A DNA stretch of 64,000 nucleotides, from assembly GCF_024362525.1 (NCBI RefSeq), contig NZ_CP101458.1, positions 2,046,001-2,110,000 of the forward strand, written 5' to 3'. The first letter of the stretch is position 1. Each line of letters opens with the position of its first letter. This stretch comes from Natrononativus amylolyticus (GTDB taxonomy: Archaea; Halobacteriota; Halobacteria; Halobacteriales; Natrialbaceae). Shown here piece after piece: positions 33,023 through 38,860 of this stretch. The notes beneath the pieces are model-generated. The model saw nothing but the letters and a program-made list of their open reading frames with translations, was not told the DNA's origin and did not search any database. A program made the position numbers and the translations under genes.

Positions 33023-33961
33023 TTACTCCTCCTCGAGTTCGGCGACGACCTCCTGTTCGCCGTCGTGGGTGTAGGAGCCGGTCAGCGACTCGTAGTCGGG
33101 GTGGTCGATCTCGATCGTGTACTCGTTCTCGTAGATGACGTCGGTGTACTGGCCGTCGTCGTCCGTTTCGCCGCTGAACTCGAGGGGAACGTCCGCGTCG
33201 AGCGGTTCGCCCTCGCCGCTGACGGACGCCCCCTCGATCGGCTCGCCGTCGCTGTCGACGACGGTGAGCGTCATCAGCGCCGCTTCGGGGGCACCGTCGG
33301 ACTCGAGTTCGACCGTGAGCTCGTGTGCCCCGTCGTGATCGTGCTCGATCGTCTCCGCCTCGTAGTCGGGGTGGTCGAGTTCGATCTCGTACTCGTTCTC
33401 GTAGATCTCGTCGGTGTACTGACCGTTCGCGTCGGTCTCGCCGCTGAACTCGAGGGGAATGTCGGCCTCGTGTGGCTCGCCCTCGCCGCTGACCGAGACG
33501 TTCTCGATCGGGTTCCCGACCGGGTCGACGACGGTCAACTCGAGGAGCGACGTGTCCGGTTCGGAGACGTCGGCCCCGTCGTCGCTATCGTCGGCCCCGT
33601 CGTCGGTGGCGTCGTCCGCCTCGTCGCCGTCGTCGGGGGCATCACCCTCGCTATCGTCGCTTTCGCCGTCCGCGTCTTCTCCGCCGCCACCATCGTCCTC
33701 ATCGGTTTCGTCCTCCTCCTCCTCGGAGGCGTCGTCCTCGTCGACCCCATCGTCACCGCCAGCGTCGTCCTCGAGGTCCGCGCCGTCATCGTCCGTATCG
33801 TCGCCGATCGACGGCATACCGGGATCGATGACGCCGCTCGTGGCGAGCGAAAACGTGATCCCGATACCGAACAGCAACACTCCAAACAGCACCAGCCCGG
33901 CGTGAATCCCGTTGAACAGCCAGGTCAGTCGCTCGTCAGTAACTCCGTTTCGTATATACAT
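33023..33961 (-). CDS. Membrane-anchored protein with two carboxypeptidase-regulatory-like repeats
   Basis: 312 residues. One membrane segment (about 19-41, GLVLFGVLLFGIGITFSLAT) without signal cleavage; a 90-residue Asp/Glu/Gly linker; then two tandem copies of an ~85-residue beta-sandwich, each reading LTVVDxxGxPIExxSVSGEGEPxxADxPLEF ... GQYTDxIYENEYxIExDHPDYE. The repeat has the CarboxypepD_reg-like layout of surface proteins. It is oriented outward from the cell. No partner gene is evident; ATG 33961 is used. Confidence 0.75.
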   Translation of the reverse strand: MYIRNGVTDERLTWLFNGIHAGLVLFGVLLFGIGITFSLATSGVIDPGMPSIGDDTDDDGADLEDDAGGDDGVDEDDASEEEEDETDEDDGGGGEDADGESDDSEGDAPDDGDEADDATDDGADDSDDGADVSEPDTSLLELTVVDPVGNPIENVSVSGEGEPHEADIPLEFSGETDANGQYTDEIYENEYEIELDHPDYEAETIEHDHDGAHELTVELESDGAPEAALMTLTVVDSDGEPIEGASVSGEGEPLDADVPLEFSGETDDDGQYTDVIYENEYTIEIDHPDYESLTGSYTHDGEQEVVAELEEE

Positions 33962-34736: not shown

Positions 34737-35237
34737 TCAGTCTTCGTACCGGACGTGCGACTCGAACAGGTTCAACTCAGTGCTGAACACCTGAGTATCG
34801 GTCGTAAAGGTGTAGTCGGTGTCTGGCTCGAGAGATTCCTCGGTGAATACGTTCGTCGTCATGTCGATCTGTCTGTCGCCGGTGGTAGACCGAACGACGT
34901 ATCCCGTGTACCTGTCGGGTTGCGTTAGAACCGGTGCGAAGTCACCATCGGGTAGTCGTAACAGTTCGACCGTGATCGGCGCGGGGAGCTGACTGACGAC
35001 CTGGAACGTCATTCCGGGACGGTGGTCTATCATGGGAACGAGGAGCTGTTCGTGAGCCATCGATTCTTCGTCGCTCGAGTTCGATCGTTCGTCCGAGCCG
35101 GTCGACAGCTCGACGCAGCCGGAGGTCCCGACGACGATCGTCCCCGCGGTGATCGTCCGTCCATCGGTCCGCGATCGGTTTTCCGTCGCGGTTTCGTCCG
35201 TCCCGTTTTCGTGGCTGTTGGATGTCATAGGAGTCAT
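34737..35237 (-). CDS. Third, diverged paralogue of the tandem secreted family
   Basis: 166 residues. The C-terminal domain (about 60-166) follows the same plan as the two genes upstream: RPGMTFQVVSQLPAPITVELLRLPDGDFAPVLTQPDRYTGYVVR ... VFTEES ... VFSTELNLFE. The N-terminus has a hydrophobic run ITAGTIVVGTSGC with a possible lipobox, but only one Arg where a Tat pair would be (RTDGRTI), so export is doubtful. ATG 35237 or 35228. It lies 117 bases after the middle copy on the same strand. Confidence 0.6.
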   Translation of the reverse strand: MTPMTSNSHENGTDETATENRSRTDGRTITAGTIVVGTSGCVELSTGSDERSNSSDEESMAHEQLLVPMIDHRPGMTFQVVSQLPAPITVELLRLPDGDFAPVLTQPDRYTGYVVRSTTGDRQIDMTTNVFTEESLEPDTDYTFTTDTQVFSTELNLFESHVRYED

Positions 35238-35354: not shown

Positions 35355-35675
35355 CTATTCGATGTCAACACTGAGGAGGTTCAGCTGCGAACTGAACATC
35401 GTCGCGTCCTCCCCGAAGCTTCCGGAGTCATCGCTGCTCAGCGAGACGTCCTGGGAGAAGAGGAACGTGGTAACGCCAGCGTTCTCACCGTCCGTGTCGT
35501 ATCGGATGACGTGGCCGGTGTAGTCGTCGGGCTGGGAGATCTCGGGCACGGTCTCGTCTTCGAGCTGCAGGACGTTGACCGTCGTACTCGCCTCGAGCTG
35601 GGCGACAACATCGAAGTCCTGGCCCGGGTGGAAGTCGTACGAGAACACGAGTCCTCGACCGTCGTCTTGAACCAT
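35355..35675 (-). CDS. Signal-less middle paralogue of the tandem secreted family
   Basis: 106 residues. MVQDDGRGLVFSYDFHPG matches the mature N-terminus of the upstream paralogue (QESGRALVFSYDFHPG), so this copy starts exactly at that gene's signal cleavage point and has no signal peptide. It also lacks the acidic C-terminal tail. ATG 35675 is two bases after the upstream TAA and must be translated by reinitiation. By eye, 134 of 153 aligned bases match the first copy at constant 443-bp offset, so the duplication is recent. It could be cytoplasmic, or exported bound to the Tat-bearing partner. Confidence 0.7.
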   Translation of the reverse strand: MVQDDGRGLVFSYDFHPGQDFDVVAQLEASTTVNVLQLEDETVPEISQPDDYTGHVIRYDTDGENAGVTTFLFSQDVSLSSDDSGSFGEDATMFSSQLNLLSVDIE

Positions 35676-36103
35676 TTTTAGTTACCTCCGTTATCTTCGT
35701 CTTCCGGTTCGTCTTCCGGCTCATCTTCCGGTTCGTCTTCCGGCTCGTCTTCCGGTTCGTCTTCTGGCTCTTCGTCGTCCGTGTCGTCGGCAGCTTCGCC
35801 GTTGATCGACGAACTGAGGAGATTCAGCTGAGAGCTGAACATCGACGCGTCTTCACCGAGCGTTCCCGTGTCACCGCTGCTCAGCGAGACGTCCTGGGAG
35901 AAGAGGAACGTGGTAACGCCGGCACCGTCCCCGCCCATGTCGTAACGGATGACGTGGCCGTTGTAGTTGTCGGGCTGGGAGATCTCGGGCACGGTCTCGT
36001 CGTCGAGCTGCAGGACGTTGACCGTCGTACTCGCCTCGAGTGACGCAACGACCGTAAAGTCCTGACCTGGGTGGAAGTCGTACGAGAACACCAGCGCCCG
36101 ACC
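35372..36103. repeat. Direct duplication, two copies 443 bp apart
   Basis: Copy 1 is about 35372-35660 and copy 2 about 35815-36103, aligned without gaps at an offset of 443. In the 153-base stretch I aligned by eye 134 bases match. Codon positions are preserved in both, consistent with a duplicated gene still under selection. Confidence 0.7.
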
Positions 36104-36226
36104 CGACTCCTGGGCAGCCACGTTGCCGGTGGTAGCCGTAGAGCCGAGTGCAACGGCGGTTGCTGCGACTGCTCCCTTCTTCATAAACGTCCGTCTCGAA
36201 TCGCCTGTAGTTTCCTGATCGCTCAT
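35678..36226 (-). CDS. Tat-exported founding copy of the tandem secreted family, with EPED tail
   Basis: 182 residues. Canonical Tat motif SRRTFMKKG, hydrophobic segment AAVATAVALGS, cleavage near VAAQE. The domain (about 42-140) is beta-rich: FSYDFHPGQDFTVVASLEA, TTVNVLQLDDETVPEISQP, HVIRYDMGG, GVTTFLFSQDVSLSS, MFSSQLNLLSS. The C-terminus repeats EPED about eight times. No known family recognised. A hairpin, GCCCC-TCTT-GGGGC, lies at 36235-36248 just before the ATG; TATA-like GTTTATTCG is near 36272-36280. Confidence 0.7.
   Translation of the reverse strand: MSDQETTGDSRRTFMKKGAVAATAVALGSTATTGNVAAQESGRALVFSYDFHPGQDFTVVASLEASTTVNVLQLDDETVPEISQPDNYNGHVIRYDMGGDGAGVTTFLFSQDVSLSSGDTGTLGEDASMFSSQLNLLSSSINGEAADDTDDEEPEDEPEDEPEDEPEDEPEDEPEDEDNGGN
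35695..35772. repeat. 12-bp tandem repeat encoding Glu-Pro-Glu-Asp tail
   Basis: About six to seven units of the form GTCTTCCGGTTC, differing by single bases, encode the C-terminal EPED tail of the first paralogue. Confidence 0.8.
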
Positions 36227-37030
36227 TTTCTCACGCCCCTCTTGGGGCGCATGACTCTTGCCCAGATAGTCGAATAAACGCAGCCGACCGTTTCGTCTGG
36301 TATTAATTAATTTAATAAGGTGGTTAAATTCAGCGGATGATACGTTTTGACGGCCGTTTCTTCACCCTCGTTCACGAAATCTATAGCGGCAATATGGCTG
36401 CCAGCTTCCACGTGTCCAACTGTGTTCTACTTTGGTTCTAGCACCGACTCGACTTCTGTTAGCTCACCTGAAACTCCGCTTCGTTGGTGAAAACCGCAGT
36501 TGAATCGTTTCTGATGGGGAGTAAACCCTGTTCACATCGACCGGAAAAAGTGGAGACTGCTCGTCCGATATTCGGTAGACGATAGTGATCAGTACAATTT
36601 TGATATTGATCCGTGCGTTCCAGCTGTAACAGTTAGGGCGTCCTGTGCAATGCTGATTTTCGACTCCGCGTACGCGAGTGAATACGGAGACGTTCACCGT
36701 TCGACTGAGACCGGTTTAACAACAGAGGTCTTCTCAAAAAACGGTGTGGTAACCGACCGTACCAACCCCGTGTCTGTTGCCGTAGCGACAGTCAATCTTG
36801 TCGAGAGTACGTCACGAATCATCCTTGCCGACCGTCACGGGAGATGACTACAGAACCGCCAAAGCGGCGGAATTAGCTCACTTGTGTACCCGAACCCTGC
36901 CCGAGCACCTATATTCTCACTGACGTTCTCGAAAACGGACACTGAAACGGCGCAGCACCGTCGAGAAATCGCATGATACGATGCAACAGTAGCGGACCTT
37001 ATTGGTTCCTTCGCGCGACGAGGACAACTC
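36227..37030. other. AT-richer intergenic region of about 800 bp
   Basis: Contains AT-rich stretches such as TATTAATTAATTTAATAAGG near 36301-36320. Two short frames (36464-36697 minus, 36650-36847 plus) show no family and overlap, so I do not call them. Nothing matches a transposase. Lower GC than its neighbours points to acquired or decayed DNA. Confidence 0.4.
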
Positions 37031-38860
37031 ATGCCCTCGAGTCATAACCGTTCGGACGAGCGGTTCGGTGGTGTTCGACGACGGCGCTTCGTCCAGGCGA
37101 TCGCGGCGACAGGTCTCGCTTCGGGCGTCAGTACCCGCTCGCTGGCCCAACAGGACGACGAAGAGAACGGCTACACACTGCCGAGTAGTCGCCCCGGTAC
37201 GGTCTGGGATTTCCCGGCGGGGAACTACGAGCAGCTGTATCTCGATCAAAAGCGCCTGTCCCTGGAGGTACTGTTAGCCGATCCCGAGGTCCACGAAATC
37301 GTCGAAGACATGATCGTGAGCTTCGAGGCCTACGAGCCACACACCAACGACCTCGATGCGGTGAGCATCCAGGGATGCCCAGACGTCGAAGTCGAGGGTG
37401 GAATCGACGATGGGGGGTTCGACGTGACGTTCGTAGACAGGCAAGTCGCGTTTGGGCTCGTCGATCGAGGAGCGGACAACCTCATTGCGCTGACGATCAC
37501 CGAACCCGTGGACGTTTCCTGGACAGTGACCGAGGGAGAAGAGTACGATGGGGCGCTACTCCAGCGAGTACTCGACGATACCACCGTTCAGGCGTTTCTC
37601 GACGATAACGACTGGTATCCGTCGACGGTAGATCCTGGGCAGATTACATCCGCCCGCGGAATAGAACACGGCGACGTTACCCCGGTCGTGTTATCCGTTA
37701 TCGAGAGCGACACCGTCGCCGCGGTCGTCGCTTACGTGCGCGAGCGGGAAGACGACGTAGGAAACGTGATCGACGTCAGGTACGTCGAGCGGTTCGTGGA
37801 AACCCCGATGCACGAACGGGCCGCCGCCATCGAACCGGCGGACGAAACGGTACTAGAAGAAGTTCCATCGGTTCCGCTCGAGCAACGGCCCCTGGAAACG
37901 GCTGACGACGGTGAGCCACAGCTCGACGAACCACCCGAGAGCTTCGAGGCAGCAAACTGGAGTATCGAATGGGAGTACCCGGAACACCACGGCGTCGAGA
38001 TTACGGCGTCGTACATGGGGACCCCGGTGTTCGAGAACATCTCATCGCCGGTTACGTTCGTCGGCTACGGTATCGGAGAACGAGGCGACGAAAGCACGTT
38101 AGAATGGTTTTTCCCGGACAACAGCCCGGTATTCGGCGGCGAGATGCTACGGTGGGACGTCCACAGTTCGGACTTCGGCGGTCCCGAACCACTCGGCTTA
38201 CTCGAGTACCCGGAACGAGATGGGCTTCCGGACGGGTTCGGACTCACGAGCCAGTATCGTACCGGGAGCGTCGACCCAGCGTCTCGAGATCACCACTCCG
38301 GGCAACGCTTCGGCCAGACCAATCACGAGATAACATACATATTCTGGGAGGATGGGACGGTCATTCCCGTCTGGAAGAGACACGGTCCGGGATTCGTCAC
38401 CGAGTACGAGGATTCCGATTCGGAGACCGTCGAGCGCTGCGTCGCTGCGTTCACCATGGAGATTACGCCCGGAGTAGACAGGGACGTAGCGGTCGAAGTG
38501 TACGACGGCGACGAGTGGATTTGGCAAGAGGAAGAGTTCTATCAGGAAGGGGGACCGGGAATTGCCGTGCGGTTCTCGAACATGGATGGGGAAGAGACCG
38601 TCGAAATCCCCATTGAGGAGGACATGGAAGCCGTCCTCACCAGTCGTGGGCCTCGAGAGATTCCAGTCCAGAGCCGTCTCGACGATCCGGCGATCGAAAC
38701 CGGGTTCTATCACCCTGCACAGTACGTCGGAAACGAGGGAATCGTGGGTGATCGAACGGTTTTCTGGCTGTTGTTAGAGTCGCCCACTAGTGAGGTCCCA
38801 CAACCCGCCGGAGCCGCATCGTTCGTGGCACATACGGAAATGTACGTGTACGGATACTGA
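37031..38860 (+). CDS. Large Tat-exported protein of unknown function
   Basis: 609 residues. Tat signal VRRRRFVQAIAATGLASG with cleavage near SLAQQ; the chain is then secreted, with no membrane anchor. A Cys lies at GCPDVEVE (about 115). The middle and C-terminal parts are beta-rich, with DHHSGQRFGQTNHEITYIFWEDGTVIPVWKRHG (about 415-449) recalling the copper amine oxidase barrel in outline only; no Tyr-Asp or His triad is assigned. Codon use is lighter in GC3 than core genes. Between the AT-richer region and tRNA-Pro(GGG). Confidence 0.6.
   Translation: MPSSHNRSDERFGGVRRRRFVQAIAATGLASGVSTRSLAQQDDEENGYTLPSSRPGTVWDFPAGNYEQLYLDQKRLSLEVLLADPEVHEIVEDMIVSFEAYEPHTNDLDAVSIQGCPDVEVEGGIDDGGFDVTFVDRQVAFGLVDRGADNLIALTITEPVDVSWTVTEGEEYDGALLQRVLDDTTVQAFLDDNDWYPSTVDPGQITSARGIEHGDVTPVVLSVIESDTVAAVVAYVREREDDVGNVIDVRYVERFVETPMHERAAAIEPADETVLEEVPSVPLEQRPLETADDGEPQLDEPPESFEAANWSIEWEYPEHHGVEITASYMGTPVFENISSPVTFVGYGIGERGDESTLEWFFPDNSPVFGGEMLRWDVHSSDFGGPEPLGLLEYPERDGLPDGFGLTSQYRTGSVDPASRDHHSGQRFGQTNHEITYIFWEDGTVIPVWKRHGPGFVTEYEDSDSETVERCVAAFTMEITPGVDRDVAVEVYDGDEWIWQEEEFYQEGGPGIAVRFSNMDGEETVEIPIEEDMEAVLTSRGPREIPVQSRLDDPAIETGFYHPAQYVGNEGIVGDRTVFWLLLESPTSEVPQPAGAASFVAHTEMYVYGY

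Follow-up and report, generated by a model that had tools for sequence, protein, structure and literature searches.

The locus described here raises the question of why a gene for a protein with a twin-arginine (Tat) signal peptide should be followed at once by a near copy of itself that lacks any signal and begins where the mature exported protein would begin. The two genes, A and B, lie with a third gene, C, in a stretch of 64,000 nucleotides of the Natrononativus amylolyticus genome (hereafter the window). The initial annotation of this stretch offered two answers, namely that the signal-less copy leaves the cell as the hetero-oligomer partner of A, or that it stays inside as a chaperone or immunity-like counterpart.

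Organisation of the locus

Genes A and B contain the following features.

35678..36226, minus strand: gene A, the predicted Tat-exported member, with a signal peptide, a domain of about 100 amino acids and an acidic tail of PEDE repeats
36113..36226, minus strand: Tat signal peptide of A, with SRRTFMKK, an h-region and a cleavage site between VAA and Q, above the TIGR01409 cut-off
35813..36103, minus strand: domain copy 1, within A, 86% identical in nucleotides to copy 2
35684..35791, minus strand: acidic low-complexity tail of A, encoded by 12-nt repeats (PEDE), with the ribosome site of B in its final codons
35684..35689, minus strand: GGAGGT in the last codons of A, 8 nt before the ATG of B, for which it probably serves as ribosome-binding site
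35355..35675, minus strand: gene B, a signal-less paralogue of 106 amino acids whose MVQDD start corresponds to the mature N-terminus of A
35370..35660, minus strand: domain copy 2, within B, modelled by AlphaFold2 with a pLDDT of 86.5

The signal of A, MSDQETTGDSRRTFMKKGAVAATAVALGSTATTGNVAA with cleavage before Q, scored 18.0 against a cut-off of 16.7 with the Tat signal model TIGR01409, and its twin-arginine motif, weakly hydrophobic h-region and AxA site are together what is expected of a probable Tat substrate; with Pfam PF10518 gene A scored below the cut-off. The ATG of B (35675) is located 2 nt past the TAA of A (35680-35678), with the GGAGGT at 35689-35684. The open reading frames of A, B and C lie where the initial annotation had them, and the duplication that it saw at a constant 443 bp is a direct repeat of the two domains, 291 nt long, 86% identical and spaced by exactly 443 bp. 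As the two proteins are 81% identical in the window, little hetero-specificity is visible in this particular pair. No other copies of the family were found in the N. amylolyticus genome beyond A, B and C. A possible archaeal TATA element, TATTAAATTAATTAATA, was called by eye upstream of A at 36301-36317 on the minus strand.

On the other side of A lies a divergent neighbour.

37031..38860, plus strand: gene for a protein of 609 amino acids whose N-terminus, RRRRF, is Tat-like; it occupies the same position next to several A-B-C cassettes

This protein, which has no Pfam, PDB or PADLOC match, is present in 45 of the 391 genomes of the class. We considered it as a lead to the function of A, B and C and rejected it because it is widespread without the family, and for the same reason its link to the cassette is probably one of synteny only. 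At 33023-33961 the window also encodes a protein of 312 amino acids that has a hydrophobic stretch at its N-terminus, an acidic linker and two carboxypeptidase-regulatory-like repeats.

A predicted exported family without a name

The initial annotation did not recognise the family, and we fared no better with curated models, PDB sequences or fold comparison. As a single sequence the domain matched nothing in Pfam, NCBIfam, PHROGs, PADLOC or the PDB sequences, nor did its alignment in Pfam or the PDB. A single-chain AlphaFold2 model of B built from 95 relatives (mean pLDDT 86.5, pTM 0.76) predicts mostly strands and one short helix, and Foldseek returned nothing significant for it among PDB and viral models. 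The domains of A and B are small and have neither cysteines nor a known cofactor.

Of the 391 genomes of the class, 63 were found to have the family, and these fall into two groups within one order; its named relatives are from Natrinema, Haloterrigena, Halopiger, Halovivax, Saliphagus and Natribaculum among the Natrialbaceae, together with Haladaptatus and Halomicrococcus. Among its haloarchaeal members are entries, such as WP_235217989 and WP_246975992, to which NCBI has given the name 'calcium-binding protein' or 'twin-arginine translocation signal domain-containing protein'. The first label was found on two plasmid loci of the family, other loci being named by their Tat signal alone, and the Pfam, NCBIfam and PDB libraries searched contain no model behind the calcium-binding name. 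Both members of an overlapping pair on a Natrinema halophilum plasmid (L142:5890-6826) are called calcium-binding by NCBI; the motif of the first is SRRTFIKK and that of the second SRRSLATK. We found no earlier description of the domain family or of the pair in the literature searched.

The A-B pair is conserved in Natrialbaceae

The initial annotation had suggested searching for the same pair in other haloarchaea. A contig scan with the sequence of B alone gave no matches, and a scan with an alignment of the B clade recovered the relatives. An A gene immediately followed by a signal-less B was found at 21 loci in Natrialbaceae, that is in the window and at 20 others, a recurrence that places the arrangement far beyond chance. 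The ATG of B lies 2 nt behind the stop of A at 17 of the 21 loci and overlaps it by 1 nt at the remaining 4, a GGAGG-type site is present within the last codons of A at most of them, and the length of B is conserved at all. No B carries a twin-arginine signal (0 of 21); each starts at the edge of the domain, with an N-terminus, M(V/T/A)Q(D/E/N) or MALQE, that adjoins the mature N-terminus. The conserved ribosome site and coupled start suggest that B is translated. All B copies found sit directly behind an A, the exception being a truncated remnant without its A, and no intact orphan B was found among these loci. The remnant belongs to a second cassette in Haloterrigena salina (L068:15440-17641), where A is gone, C is intact and the truncated B is joined to the margin of the region that holds the 609-aa gene.

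In a tree of the domain only, the A and B copies of 18 pairs fall into a clade each (support 100/98 for A and 100/99 for B), and the distance matrices of A and B correlate (Mantel r 0.82, matched by 0 of 5000 permutations), from which it follows that the split between them is old and was inherited jointly. B is not drifting and is under purifying selection like that on A: its dN/dS is mostly 0.08-0.4, with 0.5-0.7 in two very close pairs that differ by few changes. B shows neither relaxed selection nor broken frames and is intact at the 21 loci. The initial annotation had named two conditions that would refute its proposal, an untranslated middle gene, or a lack of homologous pairs elsewhere together with drift in the copy; both were checked and neither refuted it.

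In the window pair and in two pairs from Saliphagus the picture differs, in that A groups with its own B and not by A/B clade. For the window pair, a shared origin with the other pairs is indicated in that a C gene follows it, its two genes are likewise 2 nt apart and the divergent 609-aa neighbour is present here too, so that later homogenisation by gene conversion is a plausible explanation of the similarity between A and B. An AU test on the window pair gave p 0.45 for B placed with the B clade and 0.07 for A placed with the A clade, and a separate origin of this pair is possible. In all, A-B is a conserved pair system in a nameless family of predicted exported proteins, undescribed in the literature searched, and it is well supported, on the strength of gene sequences, that A and B act together.

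Gene C and the fate of signals across the family

The third copy noted initially is a true member of the family (42% identity to B, E 3.7e-15). To call it merely diverged was incomplete, as its Tat signal appears to be eroded.

34737..35237, minus strand: gene C, a diverged member with a degraded Tat signal (DGRTITAGTIVVGTSG) and no AxA site

The C copies form a clade of their own (support 99) and their composition differs (K+R 9% vs 3%). Their N-termini show what look like Tat signals in decay, eroded to a varying extent from genome to genome: STRRSF is still there in L064, KR or KA and a residual hydrophobic stretch are left in L046, L056 and L065, the window has DGRTITAGTIVVGTSG, and L057, L059 and L066 have no trace of a signal. 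A candidate lipobox in C (GTSGC) was rejected since, judged by eye, it departs from the lipobox pattern given in PMC8301774. In the Haladaptatus loci a canonical copy is followed by a signal-less copy of the C-like kind.

We then sorted the signals of 152 copies from 61 genomes, which are nearly all copies of those genomes although some that are too distant may be missing. Assignment by a simple rule, which miscalled a few copies such as L064_5887 and L053_5468, gave 94 copies with a twin-arginine signal, 32 with a hydrophobic core without twin arginines, and 26 with neither. At least one twin-arginine copy is present in 61 of the 61 genomes, an outcome reached by none of 20000 shuffles, in which the counts ignore relatedness. 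The signal is canonical in 15 of 15 single-copy genomes, most of which look closely related, whereas among the 137 copies of multi-copy genomes 79 are canonical (Fisher p 5e-4, relatedness again being ignored). The tree requires at least 15 changes of signal state and offers 7 independent contrasts on well-supported branches. That extra copies shed the tag repeatedly and the last tagged copy never does so in these 61 genomes suggests either that tagged copies carry the others or that the untagged ones have an intracellular role.

In one large class, all 14 short-tailed copies without twin arginines retain the h-region and AxA site, the arginine pair having been replaced by RH, RD, RQ, SG, TR, KG, QS, RL or RS. 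An association between tail and signal was strong in raw counts; it came from few independent pairs and was reversed in other lineages, and we rejected it as a rule. A recurrent overlapping pair in L118, L122, L125, L127 and L141 consists of a canonical short-tailed copy and then a copy that has a tail and an altered motif (SKNRE, EKRG, GKRR, GKRG or SRTLE), tail and signal thus being on opposite members relative to A-B.

Does the signal-less copy leave the cell?

Our tentative reading, to which we give somewhat less than an even chance, is that the two proteins fold into one homologous hetero-oligomer and that the untagged subunit is exported with the tagged one. The subunits, which are homologous, would be obligate partners encoded on a single message, with the translation of B coupled at the end of A, as the conservation of the 2-nt spacing and of the ribosome site suggests. 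They would co-fold in the cytoplasm, and the Tat signal of A would then take the folded complex through the translocase, carrying B out in the manner of a hitchhiker. The wider family would show this dependence at various stages: one copy retains its twin arginines, others may have lost these only (RH, RD, RQ, SG, KG and others), C also the rest of its signal, and B has none at all. The rule of one twin-arginine copy per genome fits such export in trans. Its extension to the whole family, by which one canonical copy is kept and its sisters repeatedly and independently lose their arginines because they leave the cell only in homologous hetero-oligomers with it, is a more doubtful proposition. 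Two points could tell against co-export: if assembly takes place only outside the cell, B would be left unexported, and the copies that keep an h-region without twin arginines may still have their own route of export.

There is precedent for co-export by the Tat pathway in the hydrogenases and formate dehydrogenases of E. coli (PMC10924467), and it has been proposed for haloarchaeal NarGH (PMC8301774). As in the periplasmic NiFe hydrogenases and formate dehydrogenases, a signal-less partner is co-encoded with the predicted Tat substrate in A-B, and the Tat pathway exports folded complexes. The E. coli hitchhikers are however dissimilar cofactor-bearing subunits, whereas A and B, whose complex is putative, are homologous small domains. 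NarGH is likewise a haloarchaeal pair with a Tat motif on one subunit only; unlike A and B its subunits are unrelated and bear cofactors, and there too the co-export is inferred.

The main rival, to which we give a slightly smaller chance, is that B, and C with it, are cytoplasmic counterparts that bind the domain of A inside the cell and stay behind, as a homologous chaperone until export or as a regulator. The want of any signal on B at all 21 loci would be expected of such proteins, as would the loss in C of an h-region and AxA site that are needless inside the cell, and translational coupling suits cytoplasmic co-assembly; the signal loss in B and the decay in C suit both readings equally. 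On the other hand 15 genomes manage with one canonical copy and no counterpart, and other multi-copy lineages retain after arginine loss an h-region and AxA site that would be useless in the cytoplasm. As these lineages drop the arginines only and keep the core and cleavage site, as if the proteins still crossed the membrane, we tilt slightly to co-export. The initial proposal of a hetero-oligomer partner or inside counterpart stands as far as joint action of A and B is concerned, and its immunity-like variant is without support: a toxin-immunity or defence role was rejected, with no PADLOC or PHROG match and no copy in viral contigs.

It is unlikely that B and C are separate proteins which moved the ligand-binding or structural role of the domain to the cytoplasm without any partnership, the operon order reflecting tandem duplication. 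Such duplication is common in the family, with up to 6 copies per genome, C differs in make-up as described, and some twin-arginine-less copies (L120, L124, L128, L130) are not adjacent to any canonical copy. These points are set against the strict adjacency of A and B, which at all loci are 2 nt apart or overlap by 1 nt, their correlated divergence and the lack of an intact orphan B among the loci found.

Still less probable is that the twin-arginine-poor copies exit alone, by the Tat pathway with a tolerated non-RR motif or by Sec. The h-region and AxA site kept in 14 of 14 copies would serve such a route, but it is inapplicable to the signal-less B, and in the haloarchaeal Tat substrates tested the twin arginines are needed for normal processing, which is altered by KK in place of RR (PMC2945643). 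Nor is the rise in h-region hydrophobicity of the short-tailed copies without twin arginines significant (1.41 vs 1.34, p 0.06), and we rejected a switch to Sec on this ground. Finally, a decaying or untranslated duplicate, for which nothing speaks beyond the high A-B similarity in the window, is refuted by the purifying selection on B, by its length, coupled start and ribosome site conserved at 21 loci and by its old separate clade.

Significance for haloarchaeal protein export

Signal-less passengers of the Tat pathway are hard to spot by sequence, and the known cases are mostly cofactor enzymes. With homologous tagged and untagged partners, the location of proteins that are otherwise alike can be compared, and the family offers in cultivable strains a natural series from a full signal through the loss of two arginines to no signal. 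Genome editing is available in Natrinema gari J7-2 (PMC10433800), from one of the genera that have the family. Co-export of A and B would also be the first role assigned to this haloarchaeal domain, which is probably exported and has no known family or fold match. If the trans rule is true, small archaeal proteins without cofactors would make up a hitchhiker system of which living genomes preserve every stage of signal loss.
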